DNA of 64,000 nt from an uncultured Ignavibacteria bacterium (lineage in GTDB: Bacteria; Bacteroidota; Ignavibacteria; SZUA-365), in assembly GCA_913061095.1 (NCBI GenBank), contig CAJXVM010000006.1:62001-126000 (forward strand), in the 5' to 3' direction. Every line of letters starts with the position of its first letter. Within the stretch, counting starts at the first letter, position 1. Shown here in pieces: positions 7,536 through 26,205 of the stretch. The translations under genes and the position numbers were made by a program. The notes below the pieces were generated by a model. The model was not told the origin of the DNA and searched no databases. It worked only from the letters and a program-made list of their open reading frames with translations.

Positions 7536-9698
7536 TTATTCCACGATCTTTCCTGCGCGGAGCTCATCGGAAAGACGCTGGAGGCGATAGATATGATTGA
7601 TCGCTTCAATCATGCCTGCCGAATGCACCGAAACCGTGCGGTTGCCCATGTCGGGAGCAAAAATGAACTCTCCCGGCAGACTCTCGATGTTGCCGTCGAA
7701 CGCAAGACCAACGACTTCCTTGTCGCGATTGATCAGTGGACTGCCGCTATTGCCGCCGATAATGTCATTCGTGGAAACAAAATTCAGCGGAGTATTGAGA
7801 TCGAACGACTCAGGCGGATTCATCCAGCGCTCGGGCAGATCCCACTGCTCATCACCCTTCTGGGAATAGTGACGATCATACATGCCGTAGAAGGTGGTGA
7901 ACGGTGGTGCCTTGGTGCCATTGTACTCATACCCTTCGACGACACCGTCGGAAATACGCAGCGTGAAGGTTGCGTCAGGCGGGATCGAGGTACCGTAGAT
8001 CTCGAACAGCGCACGGCCCAGTAGGGCATTGTTCACCTCGTCTCGCGCCGCCACCTGACTTGAGACCTCGGACGCAGCCAGTCGGCGCGGCTGTGCCATG
8101 CGCGCAAGCACGATGAGCGGATCGTTCGACGTGGCAATAGACTCGGGGAAACCGGCAGCCAACTTCGCATACTGTGCGGAATCGGTCAGCACTGATTCCT
8201 GCAGCATGCGGGCTGCCGCCTGCGCGGGATCCTGTCCCTGCAGGGCGTATTGCACGATCGGATCATCCTCACCGAGATAGTCGTGCATCATTCCGAGCTT
8301 CGCCCCGAGAGAGAGTCGCTCCATGTCCATGTCATGCGCGGCAAATTTACTCAGGGACCGCAGCGTCAGCTTCAGCGCCTGTCCTTTGAAGGGCCGGGCA
8401 CGCTCGTCTTCGGGCTTTTCCAGTTCCAGACTCAGTCTCGCCAGGTTCAGCGCGCGATTGAGAAAGTCCGATCCGAGAACCTCGAAGCGCAGTCCGTACA
8501 AATCCGGCGCCACGGAACGGATCCTGGCACGCGACTCCTCGATCTCCTCCCAGATATGTCCGTATTTGCTGCGCAACTCAGGATCCGCCATGACATTCGC
8601 GCGGAATTTCCGGTCGAAGTCTTTGCGGCGCTGCATGAGAACGTCACTTTCCAGCCCCGCCAGCTGGCCCTTGTATGCCTTCTGGGAATTGGCCATGCTG
8701 AAGACCTGGTTCATCATCTCATCCTTCTGATCGGGATGCAATTCGATGTACGCCTTGAGAACGGCGACACGATCATCAAGGATGCGCGAAACCCACGGGA
8801 ACTGCACGTCACGATTGAACTCGAGCTGTGCCGAAGTACTCAGACGGCTGGTGCTGCCGGGATTCCCGACAGTGAACACAAGCTCGCCCTCGCTCGGACC
8901 GCTGTCGCTCCACTTGTAAAAGTGCTCGGTCTTCAGCGGATTTCCTTCCTCGTCATAGACGCGGAAGAAATTGCAATCGAGCGTGTAGCGCGGATAGGTG
9001 AAATTGTCATCGTCGCCTCCGAAGAAACCGAGCGACAGCTCCGGCGAAAACACCAGGCGCACGTCTTCATAGCGCTTGAAGATGTATGCGGAGTACTTGC
9101 CACCATTGAAGAAGGTGACCAACTGGCAACGGTTGCCCGTCTCGACACTGATTTCCTCCTCCAGCTGTGCGATCTTGTCGTCCCGTGCGGTCAAACGCCC
9201 TTCATCGGTATCCGCGGCATCCATCGCAGCGATGACTTCCTGCGTGACGTCGCGAATTTCGACCAGCTGCTCGACGAACAGTCCCTCGACGGGACGTTCA
9301 TCCTCGAGGGTTTCAGCGATGAAGCCGTTGACGGAAAGATTCTCACCTTCCATCGAAACCTGCTCCACGGCCTGTCGCCCGCAGTGGTGATTGGTCATCA
9401 CCAGACCGTCGGCGGAGACAAATGACGCCGAGCAGTACGTGGCAAAACGCAGCGCCGACATACGAACATCGTTCATCCAATCCTGGCTGGGCGTGAAGTC
9501 GTATTCTTCCTCGAAATACTCGTACGGCGGATAATCAAAGGTCCACATCCGGCCGTTGTCGAAGCGCTGCGCTTCGATTTTCGCAAGCTTCTCCTGCTTG
9601 GCTTTTTCATAGGGTGTAAGCTCCTGCGAACCGCCGCAGCCGGTAATAAACGCCGCCGCGATGAGCAGAATCATTCCTTTGTGAATCAAGGTTCGCAT
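7536..9698 (-). CDS. S46-family dipeptidyl-peptidase lipoprotein (DPP7/DPP11 type), copy A
   Basis: A 720-residue exported serine dipeptidyl-peptidase. I start it at ATG 9698 because this gives a lipoprotein signal ending FITGC (Cys21) and has an AGGA upstream; an in-frame ATG at 9764 would put 22 residues before the signal. The trypsin-like catalytic histidine lies in MTNHHCG (about 104-105) and the nucleophile in GGNSGSP (Ser about 651). Eighteen residues after that serine is a glycine (FDGN). In characterised S46 enzymes a glycine here goes with preference for hydrophobic P1 residues (DPP7) and an arginine with acidic P1 (DPP11); applying this rule is inference. It releases dipeptides from peptide N-termini outside the cytoplasm. 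A paralogue lies directly upstream. Confidence 0.93.
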   Translation of the reverse strand: MRTLIHKGMILLIAAAFITGCGGSQELTPYEKAKQEKLAKIEAQRFDNGRMWTFDYPPYEYFEEEYDFTPSQDWMNDVRMSALRFATYCSASFVSADGLVMTNHHCGRQAVEQVSMEGENLSVNGFIAETLEDERPVEGLFVEQLVEIRDVTQEVIAAMDAADTDEGRLTARDDKIAQLEEEISVETGNRCQLVTFFNGGKYSAYIFKRYEDVRLVFSPELSLGFFGGDDDNFTYPRYTLDCNFFRVYDEEGNPLKTEHFYKWSDSGPSEGELVFTVGNPGSTSRLSTSAQLEFNRDVQFPWVSRILDDRVAVLKAYIELHPDQKDEMMNQVFSMANSQKAYKGQLAGLESDVLMQRRKDFDRKFRANVMADPELRSKYGHIWEEIEESRARIRSVAPDLYGLRFEVLGSDFLNRALNLARLSLELEKPEDERARPFKGQALKLTLRSLSKFAAHDMDMERLSLGAKLGMMHDYLGEDDPIVQYALQGQDPAQAAARMLQESVLTDSAQYAKLAAGFPESIATSNDPLIVLARMAQPRRLAASEVSSQVAARDEVNNALLGRALFEIYGTSIPPDATFTLRISDGVVEGYEYNGTKAPPFTTFYGMYDRHYSQKGDEQWDLPERWMNPPESFDLNTPLNFVSTNDIIGGNSGSPLINRDKEVVGLAFDGNIESLPGEFIFAPDMGNRTVSVHSAGMIEAINHIYRLQRLSDELRAGKIVE

Positions 9699-9891
9699 AA
9701 CAATTCCTGTAAATGAGACGTGTGAAGGTCTGCGGAAGGGGGTCGTCCCCGAATGCATTATCAAGAAACATACGAAATTTCCTCCGAAATCGACCCATTA
9801 TGAAGGATACGGACAGATGACTCGGAAGTTTCGAACGAGACACCAGCTCGACGCATGAAAGCGGATTCAGCGCATGCAAAAAGACGGATAC

Positions 9892-9945: not shown

Positions 9946-12126
9946 TCAGCGAATATTCGGCAGGCTTCCGCGCTCGAGTTCGCGAGCGATACGGTCGGCC
10001 TTGATAATGTGCCGAACCGCCTCGAGGATGCCGGCGGAATGCACCGATACGGTGCGGTTGGCCATGTCTTCGGCGAAAATGAAATCGCCCGGGAGACTCT
10101 CGATGTTACCATCGAACACAAGTCCGACGACTTCACGATCCTTGTTGATGATCGGGCTGCCGCTGTTGCCGCCGATGATATCGTTTGTTGACACGAAGTC
10201 CATGGGAGTGCTCATGTCGAACGCGGGCGGCGGATTCAGCCAGCGCTCGGGAAGCTCCCAGGCCTCTTCACCCTTGAAGGAATAGTACCGGTCGTACAAT
10301 CCGTAGAATGTCGTGTGCGCCGGGGCCTTCGTGCCGTTGTAATCGAATCCCTTGACAATGCCATCGGCGATGCGCAGCGAGAACGTCGCATCGGGCGGGA
10401 TGTCCGTGCCGTATACATCGAACAGCGCGCGGCCGAGCAGTGAACGATTCACTTCGTCACGCGCACTCATTTCACGCGCGACCTCCTGCGCCCGCTCGTA
10501 ACGGGGTGCGGCGAGACGTGCGGCGGCGATGAACGGGTCGTCCGATGCCATGATCGCGTCAGGTGCGCCGTTGACTAGGGCCTCGATTCGGGTCGAGTCC
10601 CGCAGCAACGTTGCTTCCAGCAGCTGGGATGCGGCAACGGCAGGCGTGCGCCCCTGCAGCATGACCTGGACGACGGGATCATCGATCCCGAGCATATTGA
10701 TCATCATCTTGAGCTGATTTTCCAGCGTCAGCTTGTCGAGTTTGATATTGGCGCCAATATCTTTCGACAGCGCACGTTTCATGAGCTCCAAGCGGTCGCC
10801 CTTGAATGCAGCACTGCGCTCATCCTCGGGTTTTTTCAACTCCCGTGCAAGCATAACGAGCTGTGCCGCCCGGCTGTAGAAATCGGACACTCCGAGTCCG
10901 CCGGCACGGAAGGCGTACAGATCAGGCGCGACTTCGCGCATCTTTGCGCGTGCCTCGGCAATCTCCTCCCACACACTGCCGTACTTGTCGGCGAGCTCCG
11001 GCCGCTTCATGACCTCGGCGCGGAACTGGCGGTCGAAATCACGGCGGCGCTGCATCAGGACGTCATCACGCAGTCCGGTGAGCCGCCCCATGTAGGCTTT
11101 CTGCGCATTCGACATGCTCAAAATGTCCGTGCGCATTTCTTCGGCCTCGTCGGGATTGGCTTCGGTGTACCGCAGCAGCACGTCCATACGCTTGTTGATC
11201 AGATCGAACACAAAGGGATACTGCACGTCGCGGTAATAGGCAAGCTGTTCCGCCGTGCTGAGACGGTTCGTACTTCCCGGATTGCCGATGACGAACACAG
11301 CCTCGTCCTCCTGCGCACCGGCCTTGCTCCAGTTGAAGAAATTGTCAGGCTTGAACGGTTTGCCGTCCTCGTCATACACGCGAAGGAAGCTGAAGTCGAG
11401 ACAGTAGCGGGGATATGTGAAATTGTCGAACTCTCCGCCGAAATGCGCGATCTGAATTTCCGGTGCGAGAACGAGACGGACGTCATCGAAGCGCCGGTAC
11501 AGGTAAAGCGAAAATTTCCCGCCGTTGTACAGCGTGATAATCTGCGCGCGATATCCGGTCTCTTCCGCGGCGGCCGACTCGATCTCGTCGATTTTCGCAT
11601 CGCGCGCGGCAACGCGCTCCTCGGCCGTCTGTGCGGCATCCATCGCGGCATGCACCTCGGCAGTCACATCGCGGATTTCAATCAGCTGCTCCAGCGCGAC
11701 GTCGGGAATCTTTCGTTCATCCTCAAGCGTCTCGGCGAAGAAACCGGTGTCGAGAAGCCGCTCTCCCTCCTCCTGGACGGTAGGAAGACTTCCGCGGACA
11801 CAGTGATGATTGGTCATCACAAGACCGTCGGCACTGACAAACGATGCCGAGCATCCCGTGGTAAGACGCAGCGCGGAAAGACGGGCATCCTCAAGCCAGT
11901 CCTCCGTCACCTTGAAACCATAGGTTTTCTCAAAATAATCGACAGGGGCGTACTCGAACGTCCACATCCGGCCGCCGTCGAACGGACCGGCTTTGATTTC
12001 TTCGAGTGATTTCTGTCTGGCCATCTCGTATGACGACATGCTGCCGCTCGAACCACAACCGGCGAGCAGAACGACTGTCATCAGGATGGCAACGGAACGG
12101 AAGACGTTTCGTAGCATCATGTTCAT
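9946..12126 (-). CDS. S46-family dipeptidyl-peptidase lipoprotein, copy B
   Basis: A 726-residue paralogue of the gene below it, alike over the whole length. The signal peptide ends VVLLAGC (Cys24), so it is a predicted lipoprotein. The catalytic histidine lies in MTNHHCV (about 106-107) and the serine in GGNSGSP (about 655). The position 18 residues after the serine is again glycine (VFDGN), which points to the DPP7-like specificity class by the same reasoning. Its own terminator separates it from copy A. Tandem S46 genes are common in asaccharolytic or peptide-using Bacteroidota and fit a peptide-scavenging role; whether the two differ in substrate cannot be read from the motifs. Confidence 0.93.
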   Translation of the reverse strand: MNMMLRNVFRSVAILMTVVLLAGCGSSGSMSSYEMARQKSLEEIKAGPFDGGRMWTFEYAPVDYFEKTYGFKVTEDWLEDARLSALRLTTGCSASFVSADGLVMTNHHCVRGSLPTVQEEGERLLDTGFFAETLEDERKIPDVALEQLIEIRDVTAEVHAAMDAAQTAEERVAARDAKIDEIESAAAEETGYRAQIITLYNGGKFSLYLYRRFDDVRLVLAPEIQIAHFGGEFDNFTYPRYCLDFSFLRVYDEDGKPFKPDNFFNWSKAGAQEDEAVFVIGNPGSTNRLSTAEQLAYYRDVQYPFVFDLINKRMDVLLRYTEANPDEAEEMRTDILSMSNAQKAYMGRLTGLRDDVLMQRRRDFDRQFRAEVMKRPELADKYGSVWEEIAEARAKMREVAPDLYAFRAGGLGVSDFYSRAAQLVMLARELKKPEDERSAAFKGDRLELMKRALSKDIGANIKLDKLTLENQLKMMINMLGIDDPVVQVMLQGRTPAVAASQLLEATLLRDSTRIEALVNGAPDAIMASDDPFIAAARLAAPRYERAQEVAREMSARDEVNRSLLGRALFDVYGTDIPPDATFSLRIADGIVKGFDYNGTKAPAHTTFYGLYDRYYSFKGEEAWELPERWLNPPPAFDMSTPMDFVSTNDIIGGNSGSPIINKDREVVGLVFDGNIESLPGDFIFAEDMANRTVSVHSAGILEAVRHIIKADRIARELERGSLPNIR

Positions 12127-12301: not shown

Positions 12302-12850
12302 TCATTTATCTGAAGAAAGATATTCCGGGGGAATGGGAGACGACTCCCGTTCATCATCCCAGAAAATGGACAGGATCCACCAGCGCGTACCGTCAAAATA
12401 GAGCTGGATGCTGTTGATGCCGCGCTTGATCGGCACGGGACTGCTCTTCGTTTCAAACGCGGCATAGGTGCTGAAAACATGCGCCATGCTACCGAACGAC
12501 TGAACCCGGCGTGCGATTTCCTGTTCGTAGAAACTCCGCGTTTCAAAGTACGCGGCCGCATGATCAACATACTCGTCCACCGAAAGCGTGCGCAGGGAAA
12601 ACCGGTCTCCTCCTTCCCAGACAATGGGCATCAGGCGCGCATCGGGCGCAAACAGCGCGCGGAGGCGATTCCAGTCCTTCTTTTCCCCGGCCGCACCGGA
12701 GACCGCATCGTAGAGCGCGGAAATAATGGCGTTGATGGATGCAGCATCGGATGCACGAAAGCTCTTTTTCGTTCCGCTCCCCTGCAGCGGACCGGCAGTG
12801 ACAACACCGAATGAAAAAAGGAAAATGAGCAACAGGCGGGATATTCGCAT
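12302..12850 (-). CDS. exported NTF2/SnoaL-like protein of unknown function
   Basis: The 182-residue protein starts with a signal peptide (MRISRLLLIFLFSFGVVTAG). The mature part has the helix-then-curved-sheet pattern of NTF2-like folds: SINAIISALYDAVSG, then WNRLRALFAPDARLMPI, VDEYVDHAAAYF, an HVFSTYAAFE strand, INSIQLYFDGTRWWILSIFWD. SnoaL/DUF4440-type proteins with this plan are small-molecule-binding or enzymatic, but no catalytic residues can be named. It lies 96 nt downstream of the polysaccharide-type operon and on the same strand, so it may belong to that transcript, though it is not overlapped like the other genes. Confidence 0.65.
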   Translation of the reverse strand: MRISRLLLIFLFSFGVVTAGPLQGSGTKKSFRASDAASINAIISALYDAVSGAAGEKKDWNRLRALFAPDARLMPIVWEGGDRFSLRTLSVDEYVDHAAAYFETRSFYEQEIARRVQSFGSMAHVFSTYAAFETKSSPVPIKRGINSIQLYFDGTRWWILSIFWDDERESSPIPPEYLSSDK

Positions 12851-12946: not shown

Positions 12947-14239
12947 TCACCAGTCGCCGGACAGAACCACAGCCACCTGATGATTGTGAAAATCGTGGTA
13001 GGCGTTGTTGGACTGATTGCGAATGAAATTATATGCAAGGCCGACGGACAGTCCCGTCCCGTCAGCGGATCGGAAAAGAGGATACAGCGCCTGCAGGCGC
13101 AGGACGAAACGGTTGTCTTCGCGCTGCGGATATCCCTCGAGCGGCAATCCGGCCAGGTTGGTCGCGGTGCGCGGATACTGCTTGCGGATGACTTCGATGC
13201 TGTTCATCGTTCGGATATTCCCCGGCAGCACGCCATCGAGCTGCAGTCGCAGTTCGTTGGACTGATACCCGTAACGGTCATCAAAAATCTCATCTTCGGT
13301 GAGACCGAATATCGCATCCTCGCGCACATACCGGGCGTCGCTTGAAGGATTGCTGCGCCGCAGCCACGACAGACTAAGCGGAGCGGATTGAAAAAGCCGA
13401 TACACGAGTCCGACCGAGAAGACATACTGCATCGTCGAGGGCGTCGAGAACTGCGATATCACTGCGCGTGGCGGCTTCACACCGCCCTTCCCCTTTCCGG
13501 GTGTACCGTCAGTGACCCATGTCGTATCGTTCATGGTTTCCGTATATCGCTTGTGCCCGGCATCAATGGCGCCGAATATCTGCAGCTTCCGCGCGAGCGG
13601 ATGATTCAGCACGATGCCGCCGGTGTTCTCGAGATGCGTGAACTGCTCGAGATTCGGATACCGCTTGTACTGTACGGTATGGTGAAGCCGCGCCATGAGT
13701 GCACCGAAAAGGCGGACGCGCCAGCGCAGCAGCAGCGAACCGCGCTGGAAATCGTAGAAATCCCAGTTGTCGTGATCGAAACGGCCCCCCACCTGCGGAA
13801 TGATGAACAGGTACGATACCAGACTGTCACTGAAGGATGTCGCCTCCGCAGGTTGCGGCCGCGGCATCGCCGGGACATACGGCCCGCTCCCCTCCTGCTC
13901 CGGCTCCTGCTCGTGTTCGTTCTCCTGCTCCTGCCCGAAATCCCTGTGTGACAGCTGGATCTGCGTGTACGCTCCAAGCGTGTGAATATTGTATGTGCGG
14001 TCACTGTATGTGCGGAAGAGCACCAGCGCGCCGTAATAGTATCCCTGCACATACGTGTATTTGCTCTGCGTGCCGGCGGACAATGCGCCGAACAGCGCGT
14101 GATAGACATCCTCGCGCTTCTCGTAGAATGCGAAAGAATTGTCGTCGTACATGTGCGATGTGTACAGCGAGAAATGAAGCTGTGCCGCAGCGGGAACAGT
14201 CATCTCGAGGAACAGCAGCAGCATCGCCAGGCGTTTCAT
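12947..14239 (-). CDS. predicted outer-membrane beta-barrel protein of the polysaccharide-type operon
   Basis: A 430-residue protein with signal peptide MKRLAMLLLFLEMTVPAAAQ. The rest is a series of alternating polar/aromatic strands with short turns (TYVQGYYYGALVLFRTYS, GSLLLRWRVRLFGALMAR) ending in VAVVLSGDW, an aromatic terminus typical of outer-membrane barrels. I start at ATG 14239, which overlaps the stop of the upstream glycosyltransferase gene by 4 nt (ATGA). An acidic loop rich in Gln and Glu (QEQENEHEQEPEQEG) is encoded by in-frame hexanucleotide repeats at 13892-13939. By position it could be the export porin for the polymer made by the upstream synthase, but I do not recognise a named porin family. 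Confidence 0.7.
   Translation of the reverse strand: MKRLAMLLLFLEMTVPAAAQLHFSLYTSHMYDDNSFAFYEKREDVYHALFGALSAGTQSKYTYVQGYYYGALVLFRTYSDRTYNIHTLGAYTQIQLSHRDFGQEQENEHEQEPEQEGSGPYVPAMPRPQPAEATSFSDSLVSYLFIIPQVGGRFDHDNWDFYDFQRGSLLLRWRVRLFGALMARLHHTVQYKRYPNLEQFTHLENTGGIVLNHPLARKLQIFGAIDAGHKRYTETMNDTTWVTDGTPGKGKGGVKPPRAVISQFSTPSTMQYVFSVGLVYRLFQSAPLSLSWLRRSNPSSDARYVREDAIFGLTEDEIFDDRYGYQSNELRLQLDGVLPGNIRTMNSIEVIRKQYPRTATNLAGLPLEGYPQREDNRFVLRLQALYPLFRSADGTGLSVGLAYNFIRNQSNNAYHDFHNHQVAVVLSGDW
13892..13939 (-). repeat. in-frame hexanucleotide repeat tract
   Basis: About eight consecutive 6-mers of the CTCCTG/CTCGTG type on the plus strand (CTCCTG, CTCCGG, CTCCTG, CTCGTG, TTCGTT, CTCCTG, CTCCTG, CCCGAA). 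Inside the barrel gene they encode an acidic Gln/Glu loop. The same hexamers occur in non-coding DNA at 39591-39632. Confidence 0.8.
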
Positions 14240-15522
14240 CGCTTGCGTCCCCCCGGCGCCTCTTCGACACTGAAACGCACCGTTTTCGCCCATGTCATCT
14301 GCTCCCGGCGAACGACATCCATCCAGAATGCGCGCATGACCACCACGAGCCAGAGCTGACAGTACGTGAGGTACATCAGCGCGGCCAGCAGCAGCGCAAC
14401 CGGACCGTCCTCCCTGTCATATGACAGCGCGAGCATGATCTCCGCGAGGAACAGTACGACCGCCATGACCCAGACGAGCGTGTAGGGACCCGGAAGCGGA
14501 ATACTTATCAGTCCTGACAGGGATGAAATGAATATCAGATCGGAAATCACGATGGCGACAAAGAACACGTAATACAGCGCGATGGAATAGAACATTTCGA
14601 AACGCAGGAGAAAGCTGCGAATCCCGCCGCGTTCCCGCAGGAATTTCCGTGAGACGTAATTGTTGCCCCGTACCCAGCGGGTGCGCTGTTTCAACCAGAC
14701 TGACCAGGTCTCCGGCTCCTGCTCGAAGGTGACGGAATACGGGATGAACTTGATCTTCCATCCGTGCACGTACATGCGGATGCTCAGTTCAGAGTCCTCG
14801 GTGATGGCATCTTCATCCCATCCTCCGAGTTCATCGATCACCTGACGGCGAATGATGAAATTAGTGCCCGGCAGTGTCGCGATACGCATCATCTTCCAGC
14901 GCCCGGCCTGGAGAATGGACTGAAAGCTCAGGGTCTCGATGTTGATGAAGCGCGTCAGCAGATTCCGCTTCTTGTTGACCGTGCGGAATTTCCCAAGTAC
15001 CGCGCCGAGGTCGGCATGCTCGACAAGTTGGATGGCCAGATATTTCAGCGCGTCTGTAGCGGGAGTATTGTCCGCATCATATACGGCGATGAGCGGATGC
15101 ACCGCCTGCGTCATTCCCAGGTTCAGCGCGCGCGATTTCCCGCGCCCGCCTTCGCCGGCCGGAACATCGTAGCACAGCACACGCGCGTCTTCCGCTGCGT
15201 GCCGGCGCACGATATCACCGGTGCGATCGGATGAGCCGTCGTTGATGACGATGATCTGGAGCCGGTCTTCGGGATATTCGAGCGCACGCATCGCCCGCAG
15301 TGTGCGGTCGATGACCACTTCCTCGTTGTGTGCCGGAATGAGGATGCTGACGCCGGGCAGATCCCATTCCCGCTCATCGACGCGCCGGCGCTCACGAATG
15401 GAAGCGGATTGGTGGAAATAGCCTGCGAGCGTCAGCAACAGCTGCCAACCGATCATGAACCAGATGAGAATGACAGCCACGACGAACAGGCCGCTGACGA
15501 CTGTCTGCAGTGTTTCGCTCAT
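14236..15522 (-). CDS. processive family-2 glycosyltransferase (BcsA/PgaC-like synthase)
   Basis: This 428-residue membrane enzyme has one N-terminal TM helix (about 8-35), a GT-A catalytic domain (58-290) and several C-terminal TM helices (about 300-410). Motifs are ILIPAHNEE, INDGSSDRT, the metal-binding DAD (149-151), the acceptor TED (241-243) and QRTRW (279-283), the Q/RxxRW signature of processive synthases such as cellulose, hyaluronan and poly-GlcNAc synthases. Such enzymes polymerise and translocate a glycan across the inner membrane. No PilZ domain is present, so direct c-di-GMP control is not evident. The start overlaps the stop of the deacetylase/hydrolase-like gene by 4 nt and its stop overlaps the barrel gene by 4 nt. 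The sugar is unknown. Confidence 0.88.
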   Translation of the reverse strand: MSETLQTVVSGLFVVAVILIWFMIGWQLLLTLAGYFHQSASIRERRRVDEREWDLPGVSILIPAHNEEVVIDRTLRAMRALEYPEDRLQIIVINDGSSDRTGDIVRRHAAEDARVLCYDVPAGEGGRGKSRALNLGMTQAVHPLIAVYDADNTPATDALKYLAIQLVEHADLGAVLGKFRTVNKKRNLLTRFINIETLSFQSILQAGRWKMMRIATLPGTNFIIRRQVIDELGGWDEDAITEDSELSIRMYVHGWKIKFIPYSVTFEQEPETWSVWLKQRTRWVRGNNYVSRKFLRERGGIRSFLLRFEMFYSIALYYVFFVAIVISDLIFISSLSGLISIPLPGPYTLVWVMAVVLFLAEIMLALSYDREDGPVALLLAALMYLTYCQLWLVVVMRAFWMDVVRREQMTWAKTVRFSVEEAPGGRKR

Positions 15523-18500
15523 CCGCGCCTCCGCATCGCTGCCGTCGTCGGGTCACGAAGATCGGGCGGGGCGACCGGAAGCGGGTACCGGCGGCGGCGC
15601 ACACGGATGATGAAATACATCACGGTCAGCGCCGCCATCGCGAACATGCCGAAGAGTACGATCAATGTCGAGGACCAGAAACTCGTCAGGCTGATACTGT
15701 ACGACACGGTGCCCTGTGTTACGATGCGCACCGCGTGGCGTCCATGCGGCAGCCGCACGCTGTACCGCTCGATACCCTCGCGAACGGTCGTCTCGAACGG
15801 CTGTCCGTCAACGAACACTTCGAGCGGCTCCTTGTTCAGCGTGACATAACAGCGTTCATCGCTTTCATAGGTAAACTGCACGCTTCGTTCGCCTTCGTCG
15901 ATGGACATCAGGTTCCCCGTGCAGGAGAGCAGCGTTGCATGCAGCGTGTTGGCGTCAAACAGTCCTTCACCCTTCGGGGGAATGGCGATCCGGTGCGTGC
16001 CGGCGGGAATGATGAAACGGCCGTCACCCGCCGCCGTACGAACATCCCCGTCAACAAGGATGGAACGCTGGGCGGGACTCAGCTGCAGCGTCAGTGCCAG
16101 CGGCGACCGCACGATGTAGCCCTCCGCCGTCCGCTGCACGCGCGCCTTGCCCGTCGAGGCGAACGGAAGCAGCGGGAAGTCCTGCGGAAGGATTGTCGAT
16201 TCGGCATACACGGCCGTCCGGTCTGTTTCACTGCTGCTGACGTGATACAGCGAGAAGGTCTCGATACCGGACTGCACGGTCGTGGGAAACATCGTCGGGT
16301 GCTCCGGGTCGCGGAATTTTAGGATGTTGACATCGAGCAGGAAGTCATCGCCGAGCAGTTCGCGATATGCCGACGCGATGTCGCGGTAGCGCCGCGGATC
16401 TTCCGACCAGCGCGACATCGGATCTTCCACGATCAGCTTGAAGGGATAGCGCTCGCGGAGCGCGAGGATGCGTCGCATGTCCACTCCCTGCGAACGGCGA
16501 AGATCCGGCGTGCCGATGTTGTCAAGCATGGTGACCAGCACCGCGAATCCGGGGCGCTCAGCGCGGATTTCATGCGCCAGCGCGAGCAGACGCTCATGCA
16601 TTTCCACAACCTTGTTGACGCGGTAATCCTCGAATCGCTGCCACGCGGCGGGATTCGTTTTCCAGTACCGGGGTGACGAGGCATCGAACAGCTCGATCGG
16701 ATCGAAACCAGCCCGCGTACGAAATTCCCTCCGGGCGCTCGGATGCATCGGGGCGAAACTGCCCGGCTGTTCGGGGCCGCGAACATCCGATTCGAAATAC
16801 ACTTCTGCGATATTCACACCGTCGAAATCATACATCTGCAGAAACTGCCGGTACTTCCGCAGCATGGCAGACACGCAGGTCGAATCGGTCATCGCCAGCG
16901 GATAGCGCCACGATGCGCGGTTGTCGCCTCCCAGCGCATTCTTCTCACGCCACTGCGGATGCTCTTCCCAGAATTTGTGACTCACCTGTGGCGGTTCAAG
17001 CCATGCATGCACGAGAATGCCGTTTTCATGGCAGAGCCGTATGAGCCGATCGTAGTCGTACGTGTATGTCGGATATTCATGCCAGCTCCCGACGTAGATC
17101 ACACGCACGCCATGCTCCACCCACCGGCGGACCAGCGATTCGACGGGAATGGCGCTGCGGAAACCGGGATCGAAATACATTTCAAGTCCGTCACGGCGAA
17201 ATACCGGATGCAGTTCGAGAAACTGCGCAACATACTGCAGAAAAAACGGATATCGGCTGTAGCCCATGTCCGAATGCGGATCGAAACGCGTTCCGAGGTA
17301 CAGCAGTTTGCCGTCACCGAAGCGGCGTCCGATCACGACCGGTGCATCCGTCTCGGGATCTGAAGCAAAGATGACGTCGGCCGGTTCGGCCTCGAATTTC
17401 CTGAACGGCGACGGACGCTGCCAGAGCACGTTCTCCTCGGGATACAGCCGCTCCCGCAGGCCGGTCAGTCCGATCGTCGCACCGGTATATTTCATGCCGA
17501 GTTCCAGCGCGAATTCATTTCGGCTGTCGGTAATCACGTTTCCGCCAGCGCGGACCCATTCGACGAGCTGACTGAACAGTGGATTCCTCAGTCGTTCGAC
17601 ACCCCCATACGGCACCACGAGCAGATTGTTCGCATCCTCGTCGAAACGCCCTCCGACATGCAGCGTATCCGGCTGCACGCCGATGACGCGGAATGCGCTG
17701 AGGAAACTCTGCTGATCGCGCATCGCCCCGCCCGTGGCAAGCGAATCCCAGAGCACGATCGGCTGCATGCGTTCACGCGAATCCTCGTCCTCGAACAGAT
17801 CGGCATACCATGAGCGGATGCTGCGCAGAAGACTCTGCACGGTGCCCTCGTCATGCGTGCGGATTTCCGTCGGTGTAGCGAGATACAGCTGTCCCGGCGC
17901 CATGCGCACCGTGCGTTTCACGAGACCGGTCTTGCGGTCCGCGCTGACCTCCATGCGCGCGAGTTCGCCGTTGCGGTGAAACCAGTACTCGCGCAGATAC
18001 TGATCGTTGAGCTCGATTGAAATCTCCCCGCCGCCGGTCACAATGGCCATATTGCGAAGCCGCACGATATTCGTGTCGCGCTGCGGATCGTAGAAGGTGT
18101 ACCCCATGTCCTTGATACCGCGCACGAGACGGCGCAGGTGTTCGTGTGGCACGAAGCTGTGAAAGAACGCGGACGCAAATCCGTCGCGCATGGTTTTGGC
18201 GACGCGGGCATGACCGATCATCAGCTCCACCTGACGGCGTGCGGCATTCGGATCATGCGGATCGAAAGGCACGTATCCGAGGTTCTCGGGATAAATGCGC
18301 TGTCCGTGCAGATCACGATGGATGATGTAGGGAAAGATCTGCGTGTGGTCGGCGTTGTTGATGGAACAGCGCTGCTCCATCGCCGAACTGAAGATCGTCG
18401 ACACCGCGTCGTAGGTTTTCATCGAACCCGTGTAATGCGGTGTCTCCCAGATGATGGGATAAATGCCGTTGCGGATGCACTCCTCCAGGCTCGTCAGCAC

Positions 18501-19490
18501 CTTGCGCCGTACGTAGTCCATGGTCTCATTCGCCAGCGGCGCGCCGTTGTTGATGTCCCAGAACTCGTAATCCGCTCCCGTGATGCCCTTGTACTGATGC
18601 GTTGCCCCGTGCATGACCACCGCCGCGCCCTTTTCCACCATGTAATGTATGGCGTCCACGAGATCGGGCTTGTCGGACAGGCTCACGCGAATGCCTTTTT
18701 CGGGATTGACGTAAAAGGGCACCAGCCCGACCAGGAAAGGCACCTCCTCATCGTGGAGGAGATCCGCAAGACTGCGCAGACGGTCTGGATCCTCGAGGGG
18801 ATGCACGTCTTCGATGCGGATCATCGCGCGGTGCGTTTCCGCGTGATCCTCACCGAGAATGTCATGCAGGATGTCGGCGAACAGCAGGTAGCGGTCGCGT
18901 TCGTCGGCGAGCGCGAACGGCGAATCGGCGACGTACCAGAAATCCCCGCTGCGCATGATGTAGGGAGTCGAGCCCTTGCGTCTTCCATGCGCCGTGGCAA
19001 TGACGCGGCAGCGCGCGGGATCGGTGACGCGCATCAGCGTGATATTCGGCTCGCGCTTTGTGTACACATCTTCACCGTGCCGCACGCGTGCCCAGCCCTC
19101 GGTCGTGTCGACACGGATGGCGTCAAATCCGAAGCGCTCCGCGAGATCGTGCTTCCGGGCAAACTCCACCATCCCGGTATGCAGCCACACGGCCGTGCGG
19201 CGGCGCGTGTACATATCGCGCATGAACATCGAGGAGGTACGGCCGCGCAGCGTGTAACCGATGAAAAACACCGCGTCGTAGGCTTCCATGTCGCCGGAGG
19301 CGTAGTCGTCCACGGAACGGACATCGGTGTCAGTATGGAAATGTCCCAGAAGCTGCGCGAGCTGGTAAGCGTCGCCACGCCCGAGATTGTGTTCCTCGGC
19401 CGGACCCTCGAACAGCACGAGCACACGCTGCTGACCATACACGGGCAGCGCAAGCAGTAGCAGGAATATCAGAGTGGAAACCTGTTTCAT
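15519..19490 (-). CDS. giant exported DUF2334-type deacetylase-like / glycoside-hydrolase-like protein
   Basis: A 1,323-residue protein with signal peptide (MKQVSTLIFLLLLALPVYGQ) and a C-terminal TM helix (about 1270-1297) ending in an Arg-rich tail, so most of it sits in the periplasm. Residues about 220-460 resemble the DUF2334 polysaccharide-deacetylase fold, with acidic motif RIEDVHP (225-231) and HGATH (294-298) as candidate metal ligands. A middle part has a Rossmann/amidotransferase-like look (LLVVPYGGVERL, DGKLLYLGTRFD). Residues about 765-1095 look like a TIM barrel of glycoside-hydrolase type (VIYVGSWHEYP, LVHAWLEPP, DGVNIAEVYFES). Deacetylase-first, hydrolase-second recalls PgaB, though the families differ. 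Both ends overlap neighbours by ATGA. Catalytic activity is inferred. Confidence 0.7.
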   Translation of the reverse strand: MKQVSTLIFLLLLALPVYGQQRVLVLFEGPAEEHNLGRGDAYQLAQLLGHFHTDTDVRSVDDYASGDMEAYDAVFFIGYTLRGRTSSMFMRDMYTRRRTAVWLHTGMVEFARKHDLAERFGFDAIRVDTTEGWARVRHGEDVYTKREPNITLMRVTDPARCRVIATAHGRRKGSTPYIMRSGDFWYVADSPFALADERDRYLLFADILHDILGEDHAETHRAMIRIEDVHPLEDPDRLRSLADLLHDEEVPFLVGLVPFYVNPEKGIRVSLSDKPDLVDAIHYMVEKGAAVVMHGATHQYKGITGADYEFWDINNGAPLANETMDYVRRKVLTSLEECIRNGIYPIIWETPHYTGSMKTYDAVSTIFSSAMEQRCSINNADHTQIFPYIIHRDLHGQRIYPENLGYVPFDPHDPNAARRQVELMIGHARVAKTMRDGFASAFFHSFVPHEHLRRLVRGIKDMGYTFYDPQRDTNIVRLRNMAIVTGGGEISIELNDQYLREYWFHRNGELARMEVSADRKTGLVKRTVRMAPGQLYLATPTEIRTHDEGTVQSLLRSIRSWYADLFEDEDSRERMQPIVLWDSLATGGAMRDQQSFLSAFRVIGVQPDTLHVGGRFDEDANNLLVVPYGGVERLRNPLFSQLVEWVRAGGNVITDSRNEFALELGMKYTGATIGLTGLRERLYPEENVLWQRPSPFRKFEAEPADVIFASDPETDAPVVIGRRFGDGKLLYLGTRFDPHSDMGYSRYPFFLQYVAQFLELHPVFRRDGLEMYFDPGFRSAIPVESLVRRWVEHGVRVIYVGSWHEYPTYTYDYDRLIRLCHENGILVHAWLEPPQVSHKFWEEHPQWREKNALGGDNRASWRYPLAMTDSTCVSAMLRKYRQFLQMYDFDGVNIAEVYFESDVRGPEQPGSFAPMHPSARREFRTRAGFDPIELFDASSPRYWKTNPAAWQRFEDYRVNKVVEMHERLLALAHEIRAERPGFAVLVTMLDNIGTPDLRRSQGVDMRRILALRERYPFKLIVEDPMSRWSEDPRRYRDIASAYRELLGDDFLLDVNILKFRDPEHPTMFPTTVQSGIETFSLYHVSSSETDRTAVYAESTILPQDFPLLPFASTGKARVQRTAEGYIVRSPLALTLQLSPAQRSILVDGDVRTAAGDGRFIIPAGTHRIAIPPKGEGLFDANTLHATLLSCTGNLMSIDEGERSVQFTYESDERCYVTLNKEPLEVFVDGQPFETTVREGIERYSVRLPHGRHAVRIVTQGTVSYSISLTSFWSSTLIVLFGMFAMAALTVMYFIIRVRRRRYPLPVAPPDLRDPTTAAMRRRG

Positions 19491-21871
19491 TGACGGATCA
19501 AAACCTTTCTGCTGAGAATAGAGCCGGTTGACTGAAGAACGACGAGGACCATGCCGTTCCCTCTGACCTGAAAAGCCGAAATACGAAGAACACCGCTTCC
19601 GCCGGATGAAAGGGACGCTGCGTACAGCTCGCGTCCGGTGAGATCAATGATACGCAGGACCGATCCGGCCTCTGCACGCTCATAGCGCACGGTCATTCTG
19701 TCGCGAACGGGATTCGGCCAGACGTCAATAGACATGTCCCGCGGCATCGTGATTTCCGCATGGACGGTCACGACCGGACTCAGTTCGATGCTGCCATCGA
19801 GATCAACCATCCGGAGACGATACCGGATTTCATTTGACGGAGCGCTGCGGTCTGTCCATTGGTATTCTTTCCGCATCCCCATCCCGGACGCAGCGGCGGC
19901 AGGATCGACCGTCCCGACATGCAACCATCGCCCGTCGAAAGAGCGCTGCACATCGTAGTGCAGCAATTGCGTTTCTTCCTCGACGATCCATTGAAGAACG
20001 ATGCCGCCGTCCGTGCGCCATGCATTGAATGAGCGCAGTTCAACGGGATAGGGATAACTGCCGTTGCGCAACGCCATGCCGTAGTCGCCGACCGCGTACA
20101 CAGTGCCGCCGTGGGCATCCGCGCCGTAGAGCGTGTTCTCCGCATGCGATATCTCCCGCACCCAGCTCTGACCGAAATTACTCGTGCGCATGATCGTGCC
20201 GCTGGCACCGACCGCGGCGAACTCATTCGTGGCGGGGTGCGCAAGATGAAACAGCGGCTCTCCCGTGGGAGGATAGACGGACGTCCAGCTCTGCCCGCCG
20301 TCGGTTGTGACCGCTGCCGTACCGCCGTCGCCGCAGAGCATGCCCAGCTGCCCTTCACGGATGATGCCGAAGAGTGCATCCTGCGTCCAGGGCTGCTGTG
20401 AGGACCAGGTATACCCGCCGTTCGTCGTCCCGAGCACCGTACCGTTCGCGCCGACGACGGTCCCGTTGACCGAGTCGGCGAAATGCACGCTGTAGAGTGA
20501 CTCGAGCGTGCCGGTCGCCACGGGATACCAGCCCGCGCCGGCATTCGTTGTTTTCAGGAGGCGGCCGCTGCCGCCGACGATATACCCCGTACCGTTGTCG
20601 AGAAGGTCGATGCCGTTGAGCGGAACGGTCGTCCCGCTGGCCACAGGCGACCAGGAACTGCCCCCGTTCGTGGATCGAAGAACAAGGCCTCCGTTCCCGC
20701 AGGCGACCACGATGCTGCCGTTGATGTTGTCCACACCGAACAGTGCTGCGCTCGTTCCGCTGTTCTGTGCCGTCCAGGTAGCCCCGCTGTTCGCCGTATG
20801 CGCGATGACACCGTCGGAACCGACGGCCCATGCGCTCGACGGCACCGCGGCACTGACGGCGTTGAAGGTGCTGCGTTCTCCTGCGGTGATCATGACAAAG
20901 GATGTGCCGTTCGTGGATCGAAGAATATCTCCGAACAGTCCGACCACCACGACATTGCCGCCCGTGAGCGCGAGCCCTTCGAGTCCGCTGCTCGTACCGG
21001 AGGTGAGGGCGGTCCATGACGTGCCGCCCGTCGTCGTCCGATGCAGCGCCCCTGACTCTCCGACCGCCCAGCCGTTCTGCCGCGTCGTAAATCGCACGCG
21101 GTTGATATCCGCGCTCAGACCGTTGTTCATGGTCCTGTTCCAGGTCATGCCGCCGTTCGTCGTTGTATACAGCGTGCCCGCGCCGCCGCAGGTCCAGCCA
21201 TACGACGCGTCGACGAAAAAGACATCGAGCAGATGCGCGGAGGATCCCGGGCCGGGTCCGCCGGGCAGCGTCACCGGCATCCACGATGTTCCCCCGTTCG
21301 TCGTGCGCACGACCGTGGCATTGCTTCCGACGGCGATGCCGTTTGTCGCGGAAGTGAAACACACACCGTTGAGATTGTTGGCCGTGCCCGAGGACTGTGC
21401 CGTCCAGGTCGCACCGCCATTCTGCGTCGTGCGCAGCATTCCGGCATCCCCAACAAACCATGCGGTGGACGAAGACACGGCGTACAGCGTGTTGATGCCC
21501 GCTGTCGTTCCGCTGTTCTGTGTCACCCATGTGCTGCCGCCGTTCGTGGTCTTGAGTACGACGCCGTTGTCGCCGACCACCCAGGCAGTATTCGCATCGA
21601 CGGCCTCCACGCCGCGGAGGAAGTCCTCCCTGCCGCTTTCCTGCGTGAACCAGCTGGCGCCGCCGTCGGTGGATTTGACAATGATCCCCGCCGCCCCGAC
21701 GGCCCATCCGGTCTGACTGGATGGAGAAAAATCGACATTCCACAGGTCATTCCCCTGCGGATCGGGATTTCCCCACTGCCACTGTGCCTGAAGCACGGGT
21801 GTGCCGGCACCCGTCACTGCCAGTATCAGGGTTATGACTAATACAATTGTGCTTCTGTTTCTCTGTATCAT
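19487..21871 (-). CDS. T9SS-exported Ycf48-like beta-propeller protein 1
   Basis: The protein is 794 residues long from ATG 21871, the start I choose because it gives a signal peptide and sits 1 nt after the previous stop. About fifteen Ycf48/BNR-type blades follow, each with a core like GWAVGAAGIIVKSTDGGASW. The C-terminus is a type A T9SS sorting domain (WPNPVRDRMTVRY, LRIIDLTGRELY, VLIRQ). Family members form propellers that bind proteins or glycans; no enzymatic residues are apparent. It should be exported across the outer membrane and either released or surface-bound. Its stop overlaps the start of the deacetylase/hydrolase-like gene by 4 nt, so it is translationally tied to the polysaccharide-type genes. 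Confidence 0.85.
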   Translation of the reverse strand: MIQRNRSTIVLVITLILAVTGAGTPVLQAQWQWGNPDPQGNDLWNVDFSPSSQTGWAVGAAGIIVKSTDGGASWFTQESGREDFLRGVEAVDANTAWVVGDNGVVLKTTNGGSTWVTQNSGTTAGINTLYAVSSSTAWFVGDAGMLRTTQNGGATWTAQSSGTANNLNGVCFTSATNGIAVGSNATVVRTTNGGTSWMPVTLPGGPGPGSSAHLLDVFFVDASYGWTCGGAGTLYTTTNGGMTWNRTMNNGLSADINRVRFTTRQNGWAVGESGALHRTTTGGTSWTALTSGTSSGLEGLALTGGNVVVVGLFGDILRSTNGTSFVMITAGERSTFNAVSAAVPSSAWAVGSDGVIAHTANSGATWTAQNSGTSAALFGVDNINGSIVVACGNGGLVLRSTNGGSSWSPVASGTTVPLNGIDLLDNGTGYIVGGSGRLLKTTNAGAGWYPVATGTLESLYSVHFADSVNGTVVGANGTVLGTTNGGYTWSSQQPWTQDALFGIIREGQLGMLCGDGGTAAVTTDGGQSWTSVYPPTGEPLFHLAHPATNEFAAVGASGTIMRTSNFGQSWVREISHAENTLYGADAHGGTVYAVGDYGMALRNGSYPYPVELRSFNAWRTDGGIVLQWIVEEETQLLHYDVQRSFDGRWLHVGTVDPAAAASGMGMRKEYQWTDRSAPSNEIRYRLRMVDLDGSIELSPVVTVHAEITMPRDMSIDVWPNPVRDRMTVRYERAEAGSVLRIIDLTGRELYAASLSSGGSGVLRISAFQVRGNGMVLVVLQSTGSILSRKVLIRQ

Positions 21872-21872
21872 C

Positions 21873-23981
21873 CTATTGAACGATGACCATTCGTGTTTCA
21901 ATGCGTCCGTCGTGCCGTGCCACGATATAGTATCGTCCCGCACCCCGGAGACGGGATGCGGAAAAGCGCAGTGTCCCGTCTCGGCCCACCAGGGCAGCAC
22001 TGCGACCGGAAAGATCCGTCACGAGTCTGCCAAGGACGTCGTAGACGTGCAGTGATATCGGTGCGGACTGCGAATGCAGGTCGATCCGCAGCGTCGCATT
22101 GCGCGACAGCGGATTCGGATAGACACCGCGAATCAGCGGATTCAATGCTGCAGCGTCCGGATGATCCACCGATGTCGAGGCATCGTCCTTCCAGGTCAGC
22201 ACCGTGGCGTAATCCCCTGAAATCCAGCCGTGCCGCTCGTCGATGAAATCCAGTCCGAACAGATCGTAATTCGTGCGCGCATACACAGACTGCCAGTCCG
22301 CGCCCGCGTTCGTGCTGTGCAGCACCGTCCCGCCGTCGCCGATCACCCACAGCGCGTTGCGATGCGCGCCGTCGATCACATACAGCGCCGTCTCCGTGCC
22401 GGGATCCTGCATGGACCACGAAGCACCGGCGTCTGTCGTATGCAGCACGGTGCCGACCTCACCCACGATCCACCCCTCTGCATCACTTACGAAGCGCGGC
22501 CAGTACAGCGTCACGTCGGTAGGCGTCTCCTGGCGCTTCCACGTCGCGCCGCCGTTGAAACTCGTGAGCACACCTCCGGCGTCCCCCGCGATCACGACAT
22601 GCTGTTCCGAGACGGCCTGCACGCCGAAGAGGTAATCCTGCGTCCCGCTTTCCTGCTTTGTCCAGGACGCGCCGCCGTTCGTGGTTTTCAGGATCATACC
22701 CAGCTCGCCGACCGCCCAGCCGACGTCCGCCGTGGCGAAATCCACCGCGAGAAGAATATTCGTGAATGTGTTTTCCTGCTGCGTCCATGTCGCACCGCCG
22801 TCGGCAGTGTGGAGAATGACGCCGAACTCCCCCACCGTCCATGCCTCGTCGGGTGAAACCGCCTTGCCGCCGTACAGGCTGTTTCCGAGGGCCGGCGTTT
22901 CCTCCCGCCAGTGCGCACCGCCGTCGGTTGTATGAAGGATCATACCGTCCTGCCCGAAGCACCAGCCATCGCGCGCCGTGGCGAAGCTCGTCCAGTTCGC
23001 GGACTTCCGCGTTGTGCCGTTGATCACCATCCACTGCGCCCCCCCGTCCGTGCTGCGAAGGATGTGTCCGAACTCGCCGGCGGCCAGCAGCACGCGTCCG
23101 TTCGAGGCAATCCCCTCGATGACGCTCTCCGGAAGAAGCACCGGCAGCGCACGCCACTCCGCGCCGCTGTTCGTCGTGTGCAGCATCGTGCCACCGTCGC
23201 CGACCGCCCAGGCTTCCGAGCCGCTCAACGGTGTAATGTCGTTGAGATGCCTGCTCGAACCGCTCTGCTGGCGGTCCCAGCGGAAACCGCCGTTGACGGT
23301 GTGGTAGATGCTCCCCTTCGTCCCACAGATCCATCCGCTGGATGCGTCGGCAAACGCGATCGCGAACAGATCCTCGGGCGGAGTGATGCGCACGGACGAC
23401 CACGTGGCGCCACCGTCACCGGTTTCCAGCAGCGTCCCCGCCTCGCCGACGACGAATCCCTTCCGGTCGTTCACGAATGCAATGTCATTCAGGATGCCCG
23501 AGACACCGCTGAACACCTGCTCCCAGTCCCTGCCCCCGTTGGTGGAGCGGATGATCGTGCCGCCGTCGCCGCAGGCGATGATTGTTTCTGCGCCGGTGCG
23601 GGCGACGCCGTTGAGTCCCTGCGCGGTGATGGACTGCAGGTCATCCCAGAACAGGCCCCCATCTCTGCTGTGCAGCAGGATGCCGTTGTCGGCGACACAC
23701 CAGAATCCATCGGCATGCGTCACGGACGCACTGATGACATTGTCGGTCAGGCCGAACATCGTATTCGCCCAGGTTGCGCCGTCATCCTCGCTGCGCAGGA
23801 CGGTGCCGGAGCGTCCCGTGACGATGAAACTGCCATCCGGTGCCGCCGCGATGGACATCAGCATGTTCCCCTGCGGAAACGGGTGCTGCCAGCGCAGCGT
23901 GGTCTGCGCACGGCTGTCGATGGCGGCGAGCGTAGTGATGAGCAGAAAAACAGGTATAAAAAAAAGATGCAGACGATGCAT
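21873..23981 (-). CDS. T9SS-exported Ycf48-like beta-propeller protein 2
   Basis: The protein is 702 residues long from ATG 23981, where the sequence becomes a clean signal peptide (MHRLHLFFIPVFLLITTLAA). An open frame continues upstream to 24443, but that part lies opposite the archease gene and has no export signal. The mature part is a series of Ycf48/BNR blades (GWICGTKGSIYHTVNGGFRW and variants) and ends in a type A T9SS sorting domain (VYPNPLSRNATLRIDL, LHVYDVLGRLV, TRMVIVQ). It is the first gene of the five-gene coupled operon and a paralogue of the next gene, whose ATG starts 1 nt after this TAG. Molecular role unknown; scaffold or adhesin is a guess. Confidence 0.85.
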   Translation of the reverse strand: MHRLHLFFIPVFLLITTLAAIDSRAQTTLRWQHPFPQGNMLMSIAAAPDGSFIVTGRSGTVLRSEDDGATWANTMFGLTDNVISASVTHADGFWCVADNGILLHSRDGGLFWDDLQSITAQGLNGVARTGAETIIACGDGGTIIRSTNGGRDWEQVFSGVSGILNDIAFVNDRKGFVVGEAGTLLETGDGGATWSSVRITPPEDLFAIAFADASSGWICGTKGSIYHTVNGGFRWDRQQSGSSRHLNDITPLSGSEAWAVGDGGTMLHTTNSGAEWRALPVLLPESVIEGIASNGRVLLAAGEFGHILRSTDGGAQWMVINGTTRKSANWTSFATARDGWCFGQDGMILHTTDGGAHWREETPALGNSLYGGKAVSPDEAWTVGEFGVILHTADGGATWTQQENTFTNILLAVDFATADVGWAVGELGMILKTTNGGASWTKQESGTQDYLFGVQAVSEQHVVIAGDAGGVLTSFNGGATWKRQETPTDVTLYWPRFVSDAEGWIVGEVGTVLHTTDAGASWSMQDPGTETALYVIDGAHRNALWVIGDGGTVLHSTNAGADWQSVYARTNYDLFGLDFIDERHGWISGDYATVLTWKDDASTSVDHPDAAALNPLIRGVYPNPLSRNATLRIDLHSQSAPISLHVYDVLGRLVTDLSGRSAALVGRDGTLRFSASRLRGAGRYYIVARHDGRIETRMVIVQ

Positions 23982-24744: not shown

Positions 24745-24762
24745 GTGGATACGGACGCGATC

Positions 24763-26205
24763 ATGGACATACAGATTCGACAACTCGACGATACAACCTG
24801 GGAAATCCCGAAAACTGGCGGGATGCGCGTTCCCGGGCGCGTGTACGCCAGCCGGAAAATGATGGAGCGCATCAGGGCGGATAAAAGCCTCGAGCAGGTC
24901 GCCAACGTCGCGCATCTGCCCGGGATCGTGAAGTACTCCCTTGCCATGCCCGACATCCACTGGGGCTACGGCTTCCCCATCGGAGGCGTCTGCGCCACCG
25001 ACGCCGAAGACGGCGTCATCTCCCCCGGCGGGGTCGGCTACGACATCAACTGCGGCGTGCGGCTGCTGGCGACAAACCTGAAGGCAGACGACGTGCAGCC
25101 GCGCATCCGCCACCTGGTGAAAGAACTGTTCGACAATGTGCCGACCGGGGTGGGCGCTTCGAAGGCGATCCCGAAACTCTCCAGAAAGGATCTCGAGAAG
25201 GTGGCCGTGCAGGGCGCACGCTGGGCGGCGGAACACGGATTCGGCTCATCCGCGCAGCTCGACTTCATCGAGGAAAACGGCTGCATTGCAGATGCCGATC
25301 CTTCTGCGGTAGACGAGCGGCCCTGGCAGCGCGGCGCCGATCAGCTCGGCACGCTGGGTTCCGGCAATCACTTTCTCGAAATCGGCAGAATCGAGGAGAT
25401 CCTCCATCCCGACGCGGCACGCGTGTTCGGACTCGAGCCCGATGGAATCGTCATCCTGATCCACTGTGGTTCACGCGGATTCGGCTACCAGATCTGCGAC
25501 GATTACCTGAAGGTCACCCAGCAGGCAACGAAAAAGTACAACATCTCCATCCCCGACCGGCAGCTCGCCTGCGCGCCAATCACAAGCGGCGAAGGACAGG
25601 CGTATCTCGGCGCCATGCGATGCGCAGCGAATTACGCCTTCGCGAACCGGCAGGTCATCATGCACCTCACCGAGCAGGCGGTGATGAAGGCGCTCGATAT
25701 CAGTGATCATGAAGCGGGCATTCGTCCGATTTACGATATCTGCCACAATATTGCCAAGTTCGAGACACACGACGTCGATGGCGCCCGGCAGCGCGTCTGC
25801 ATGCACCGCAAAGGCGCAACGCGCGCCTTCGGTCCGGGCAGCGAACACATTCCCGAAGCCTACCGCTCGATCGGACAGCCCGTGCTCATCCCGGGCGACA
25901 TGGGACGCTACTCCTATCTCACCGTCGGCACCGACCGGGCGATGCATGAAACCTTCGGGAGCTCCTGCCACGGTGCGGGACGACACATGAGCCGCAAGAA
26001 GGCCATGGCCGCCAGCAAGGGTCGGGATATGATTCAGGAGCTGCGCGACCGCGGCGTGGAGATTCAGGCCACCGGCAAGCGCACCATCGCCGAAGAAATG
26101 CCCCACGCCTACAAGGACGTCTCTGACGTCGTCAACGTCATGCACGACGCCGGCATTGCCCTCAAGGTGGCGAAGTTTCGTCCCATCGGAGTCATCAAGG
26201 GCTGA
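24763..26205 (+). CDS. rtcB: RNA ligase RtcB (3'-phosphate/5'-OH)
   Basis: The 480-residue ligase joins RNA 3'-phosphate or 2',3'-cyclic phosphate ends to 5'-OH ends using GTP and Mn2+. Metal-site motif GYDINCGVRLL (Asp94, Cys97), GTLGSGNHFLEI, IHCGSRGFGYQ and the guanylylated-histidine motif SCHGAGRHMSR (His about 403) are all present. The length is standard. ATG 24763 is the first methionine; a GTG at 24745 directly after the archease stop is an alternative that would add six residues. Neither has a strong Shine-Dalgarno, so translation is probably coupled to archease. The pair forms an RNA-repair operon; no RtcR or RtcA is visible. Confidence 0.95.
   Translation: MDIQIRQLDDTTWEIPKTGGMRVPGRVYASRKMMERIRADKSLEQVANVAHLPGIVKYSLAMPDIHWGYGFPIGGVCATDAEDGVISPGGVGYDINCGVRLLATNLKADDVQPRIRHLVKELFDNVPTGVGASKAIPKLSRKDLEKVAVQGARWAAEHGFGSSAQLDFIEENGCIADADPSAVDERPWQRGADQLGTLGSGNHFLEIGRIEEILHPDAARVFGLEPDGIVILIHCGSRGFGYQICDDYLKVTQQATKKYNISIPDRQLACAPITSGEGQAYLGAMRCAANYAFANRQVIMHLTEQAVMKALDISDHEAGIRPIYDICHNIAKFETHDVDGARQRVCMHRKGATRAFGPGSEHIPEAYRSIGQPVLIPGDMGRYSYLTVGTDRAMHETFGSSCHGAGRHMSRKKAMAASKGRDMIQELRDRGVEIQATGKRTIAEEMPHAYKDVSDVVNVMHDAGIALKVAKFRPIGVIKG

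Follow-up and report, generated by a model that had tools for sequence, protein, structure and literature searches.

Five minus-strand genes of an uncultured Ignavibacteria bacterium are interpreted here as an operon that makes, edits and exports a homopolymer of an amino sugar, most probably poly-N-acetylmannosamine built from UDP-ManNAc, and we assign this reading a probability of roughly 0.6. The system is probably a Gram-negative relative of the Pss machinery of Listeria that carries a bifunctional PgaB-like editor; some of its parts are fused or added, and it is a full member of neither the Pga nor the Pss group.

Operon organization

All coordinates refer to the window, meaning the whole 64,000-nucleotide stretch of DNA that was analyzed. 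Genes A to E lie on the minus strand, and their reading frames contain no internal stops. Gene A (positions 21873-23981, 702 amino acids) encodes an exported Ycf48-like beta-propeller with a T9SS type A tail, identified with PF14870 and TIGR04183, and B (19487-21871, 794 amino acids) encodes a second exported Ycf48-like propeller, identified with PF14870, whose T9SS tail is borderline. The product of C (15519-19490, 1,323 amino acids) is an exported, membrane-anchored protein recognized as a two-module enzyme from its DUF2334 domain and a structure model. D (14236-15522, 428 amino acids) was assigned as a PssC-type processive GT2 synthase using motifs, sequence identity and a tree, and E (12947-14239, 430 amino acids) is an outer-membrane barrel with 16 strands in its structure model. 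A and B are separated by the single base 21872, and the B/C, C/D and D/E junctions are ATGA overlaps (19487-19490, 15519-15522 and 14236-14239, respectively). A preliminary description of this DNA had reported five fused minus-strand genes, and its coordinates, 1-nt gap, overlaps and motifs were all reproduced.

That description did not include gene F (12302-12850, minus strand), which encodes a small exported SnoaL/NTF2-like protein of 182 amino acids with a weak match to PF12680, below the cut-off. F follows E in six home-family relatives (most of that family), and its longest open reading frame overlaps E by 4 bases in the relative L036; F is a possible sixth gene of the operon in the home family alone. 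Tandem exported serine peptidases (7536-9764 and 9946-12126), S46-like in sequence appearance, adjoin F, and genes of similar size are found at this place in several home-family relatives. The operon is also bordered by a plus-strand RtcB-like RNA ligase (24745-26205), with an archease-like ORF located just before it.

Assignment of the synthase

The GT2 protein D groups with a polysaccharide synthase, PssC of Listeria, and not with a protein-glycosylation family. Its DAD, TED and QRTRW motifs are essentially invariant among 24 homologues, the domain scan found no extra domains, and its closest annotated relatives are GT2 proteins of Listeria and Enterococcus. Identity to Listeria PssC is 42% over 98% of the length, compared to 27% for IcaA, 25% for PgaC and 24% for BcsA, all over partial lengths; similarity to NfrB was not significant (E = 0.13). 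The best NCBIfam model for D was PgaC_IcaA (1.1e-48), with a score of 166 bits against a cut-off of 422. Long branches distorted a first GT2 tree that included NfrB and BcsA, and the tree was redone without these two proteins. In the tree so obtained, D, PssC and the GT2s of Acinetobacter and Priestia were split from IcaA and PgaC with support of 100/100, a value that concerns this split and not the branching order inside the PssC-side group. Placement of D within PgaC/IcaA, and thus in the PNAG system, was rejected due to the PgaC cut-off and the split in the tree. For PssC against IcaA/HmsR, the original Pss paper (PMC4125290) gives a value near 30% across some 300 residues.

Domains and conserved residues of the putative editing enzyme

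The first half of C consists of a Rossmann-like region and a CE4-like DUF2334 domain (residues 221-458, positions 18117-18830 on the minus strand), the latter detected at 1.6e-45 in the domain scan. The second half contains a GH42M-like region and a TIM barrel (about residues 770-1085, 16236-17183 on the minus strand); here the scan gave only a weak GHL6/GH42M signal, and the barrel was placed using the structure model (pLDDT 85), which backs it, and conserved residues. A C-terminal transmembrane anchor (approximately 15590-15690, minus strand) was read directly from the sequence and is conserved in homologues. Module 1 (about residues 20-560) matches stand-alone DUF2334 proteins, and for module 2 (approximately residues 560-1260) the matches are stand-alone proteins, some 730 amino acids long, encoded elsewhere in the class. 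Since these GH-like paralogues of module 2 (L124-L133) occur in unrelated gene contexts, none of them in polysaccharide loci, they are evidence only for C as a two-module fusion. Weak matches to the TIM barrel alone in family f28 were put aside as unrelated.

Both the deacetylase and the TIM-barrel residues of this large protein are present and conserved. Residues E227, D228, H294, H298, P351, H352 and H444 of the DUF2334 domain are invariant, with those at putative CE4 positions (D228, H294, H298, P351 and H444) being found in 24 of 24 homologues. For the barrel acids E784, D812, E832, D890, E896, D990, D1023 and D1053, nearly all are retained in 25 of 25. These residues are putatively catalytic by analogy with CE4 enzymes and PgaB (PMC5933820). 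Foldseek searches with the model of C matched whole PgaB (4f9d) with an E value of 1.8e-10 and the PgaB GH domain with TMt values of 0.64-0.65, the hydrolase domain being the best PgaB match to C as a single domain. The best match overall was a GH164 beta-mannosidase and not PgaB, GH42 enzymes were also matched, and whole-chain superpositions were poor; a PDB sequence search gave weak GH42-type matches only. In fold, the modeled protein looks like PgaB, with a deacetylase plus a hydrolase.

Listeria PssB (L061, 4488-5984) and its Enterococcus counterpart (L062, 4418-6001) have replacements of the CE4-type metal residues, unlike other DUF2334 proteins, and judging from their sequences may be inactive as deacetylases. 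Because C keeps the metal residues that PssB lacks, C is likelier than PssB to be an active deacetylase.

Conservation of gene order and linkage to WecB

A scan of the contig set with C gave three loci only, and whole genomes were then used. A first draw of 61 genomes from the class gave 17 with a homologue of C, and a larger draw of 391 gave 79; most homologues are full-length, with 40-82% identity, and a few are fragments. One homologue is located on a Candidatus Aminicenantes contig, where D also adjoins C. For mapping of the parts by profile, 64 neighborhoods were fetched, and addition of the window brought the total to 65 loci. Downstream sequence was available for 63 loci, and every one of them has D after C in the same orientation; the spacing is within about 230 bp in 62 of these, and L050 has a gap of 916 bp. 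The synteny is not unique to this genome, and because C-D adjacency is kept across the class, the operon grouping represents more than chance. The order WecB-C-D-E-propeller is intact in L040, L089, L095, L101 and L102.

WecB, a UDP-GlcNAc 2-epimerase, is the source of UDP-ManNAc. In 19 loci, which belong to six families, its gene immediately precedes C in the same orientation, and three linked copies that were tested against TIGR00236 scored about 500 bits against a cut-off of 210. No WecB gene is present in the 64-kb window; the home genome has three Epimerase_2 genes, one of which (L057) is 42-45% identical to linked WecB copies. An Epimerase_2 gene was detected in 36 of 37 C-positive genomes checked, most of them without linked WecB. 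Due to the commonness of this family, the count should be considered a refutation test passed and no more, and a copy elsewhere in a genome weak evidence; G457, the exception, is 98% complete and has C-D with no detectable Epimerase_2 gene. A relative of DUF2334 resides beside wecB and a GT2 gene on a Comamonadaceae plasmid and on a Streptomyces plasmid, and PssC-type GT2 genes are near wecB in two Acinetobacter. The Comamonadaceae DUF2334 protein is 30% identical to C. The polymer of Listeria Pss is poly-beta-(1,4)-ManNAc with Gal (PMC5039582), and Nfr has been proposed to use UDP-ManNAc on a like argument (PMC8669469). For the present system, the linkage of WecB points indirectly to a product like that of Listeria.

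The Comamonadaceae cluster (L067, 3806-12752) comprises wecB and genes for an NfrB-like glycosyltransferase, a DUF2334 protein, an NfrA-like TPR porin and a DUF4434 protein. It looks like an Nfr-type system that also encodes an apparent deacetylase and a second enzyme.

Outer-membrane barrel and propellers

The previous call of E as an outer-membrane barrel fits its model, which has 16 strands (pLDDT 77), the number for PgaA and BcsC. Structure matches were to generic porins, with AlgE at rank 44, so the fold backs a pore and not a particular substrate. A sequence search of the PDB with E gave no match, and the domain scan gave nothing above cut-off. Of the 65 loci, 27 have E next to C or D (25 on the same strand and 2 on the opposite strand), and an E-family protein is encoded in 46 of 79 C-positive versus 60 of 312 C-negative genomes (Fisher 5e-11, with relatedness ignored). 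E is associated with C but is not universal, and these counts indicate export independent of E in some lineages, which must use another exit. A second E-family barrel is encoded in the home genome away from the operon (G000:C7:161116-162438).

PF14870 matches A at 4e-59 and B at 4e-42. With TIGR04183 (cut-off 23 bits), A passes at 25.2 and B is just under at 22.0. A homologue of A, with 42-65% identity, occupies the same position in the home family. Linked propellers are present in 22 loci from five families and in three arrangements: ten are upstream of C in the home family, seven come immediately after E in the same orientation (f14, f23 and f58), and five are divergent and upstream of C (f22). 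Six linked propellers from outside the home family were tested for a T9SS tail, and five had one above cut-off, the exception being the L040 copy. Each genome has 1-14 B-like propeller matches, and the linked copy is the best B match of its genome in G214, G366 and G541, and not in G026.

Proposed pathway and alternatives

From its family and motifs, D would polymerize the chain and extrude it through the inner membrane, using UDP-ManNAc supplied by WecB, whose gene adjoins C in many relatives and would be located elsewhere in this genome. C, facing the periplasm, would use its DUF2334 domain to de-N-acetylate the chain and its TIM barrel to cut it, as PgaB does for PNAG; the fold and conserved residues suggest these activities. 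The edited chain would then pass the outer membrane through E, as its fold and position suggest, and A and B may reach the surface via T9SS and bind, display or act on the polymer outside the cell. Binding or display at the surface is our preferred guess for the propellers. A partly de-N-acetylated polymannosamine would be positively charged. More tentatively, this may be a widespread Gram-negative system in which such a polymer is produced with a DUF2334-hydrolase editor and displayed by T9SS propellers, with this branch of DUF2334 deacetylating ManNAc polymers in several phyla. DUF2334, a domain of unknown function, would gain a specific, testable job as a deacetylase of ManNAc polymers. The shared parts connect three systems usually kept apart (Listeria Pss, E. 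coli Nfr and the Pga system for PNAG), and polymer secretion is indicated in about one-fifth of the sampled genomes of one Bacteroidota class.

The propellers could instead be unrelated T9SS cargo that shares the operon in the home family, an explanation that would leave the polymer reading intact for the remaining genes. At least 150 T9SS tails were found in this genome, and adjacency alone is weak where such cargo is abundant; several B-like matches per genome and the lack of a propeller in most C-D loci also favor this view. Against it, linkage in five families and three arrangements, including the seven copies directly after E, and the best B matches among linked copies argue for a real link. 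A rough estimate of 6e-7 was obtained for chance linkage in 5 of 12 families, ignoring shared descent and assuming 10 propeller genes per genome. We consider the cargo explanation doubtful and the propellers probably a real part of the system, and an accessory one since the C-D core mostly lacks them. The proposal that glycan export is tied to T9SS propellers was borne out for the gene linkage and not for the core at large; coupling of the propellers to export would be conjecture.

Two alternatives concern the glycan itself. One is that the same machinery makes a PNAG-like GlcNAc polymer and represents a diverged PgaABCD of Bacteroidota, as might be expected from the top-ranked PgaC_IcaA model for D, the PgaB-like domains and fold of C, and the 16 strands of E. 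This is unlikely given that D is far below the PgaC cut-off and much nearer PssC than IcaA/PgaC, that PgaD is absent and E is without TPRs, and that the WecB linked in six families would be superfluous for a GlcNAc polymer. Less probable still is a cell-bound glycan, not a free exopolysaccharide, attached to T9SS cargo or LPS, the propellers serving as acceptors. In Porphyromonas, T9SS cargo is attached to A-LPS, and the mostly T9SS-tailed linked propellers and abundant tails of this genome would suit a similar arrangement; yet D is a processive-type GT2 that groups with the synthase of a secreted polymer, the operon contains no ligase, flippase or undecaprenyl enzyme, and propellers are often missing from the C-D core. 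A secreted ManNAc polymer remains our preferred reading.

Comparison with known systems

The preliminary description proposed a synthase-dependent polysaccharide system, and the synteny, the grouping of the GT2 and the conserved residues uphold this, with the amendments that a named relative exists and that the propellers are accessory. A survey of biofilm-machinery operons (PMC7112194) contains neither these lineages nor DUF2334, and among the open-access papers searched DUF2334 was found in a single one, a marine-metagenome survey, and no pairing with exopolysaccharide was found. Pel, which had been offered as an analogy, is unsuitable for the synthase because its polymerase, PelF, is a GT4 and not a GT2; the operon has a GT2 and neither PelF nor PelG.

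PgaABCD is similar in combining a GT2 synthase, a deacetylase plus hydrolase (PgaB, GH153) and an outer-membrane porin, and C resembles PgaB as a one-protein deacetylase and hydrolase in fold, not in sequence family. The differences are that D scores under the PgaC equivalog cut-off and is separated from PgaC by the split in the tree, that PgaD is missing, that E has no TPR, unlike PgaA, that DUF2334 takes the place of the PgaB-type deacetylase, and that relatives have linked WecB. The NfrBA-YbcH/NGR system of E. coli exports a proposed ManNAc polymer in a synthase-dependent manner and needs WecB (PMC8669469, PMC8669472). It resembles the operon in this mode of export, and the Nfr-like Comamonadaceae cluster carries a DUF2334 relative of C; however, D is not detectably close to NfrB and has no MshEN domain, NfrA has TPRs, and the E. 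coli nfrBA-ybcH operon has no DUF2334 protein.

The nearest likeness is to Listeria Pss (pssA-E), in which a DUF2334 protein is adjacent to a GT2 with editor preceding synthase (PssB before PssC), and D is of the PssC type by both identity and tree. The usual relative cited for Pss is B. subtilis ydaJKLMN; the likeness here is drawn from the Listeria proteins. C matches PssB weakly (9e-7 over 94 amino acids) and retains metal residues that PssB has lost. The present system is Gram-negative, has a barrel and T9SS propellers, and has the hydrolase fused in C; BcsB-like PssD, PgaD and any c-di-GMP component, including the receptor PssE, were all absent from the window operon. The earlier statement that no named system has this parts list was too strong, since the GT2 core is of the Listeria Pss type and Pss is a close, named relative.
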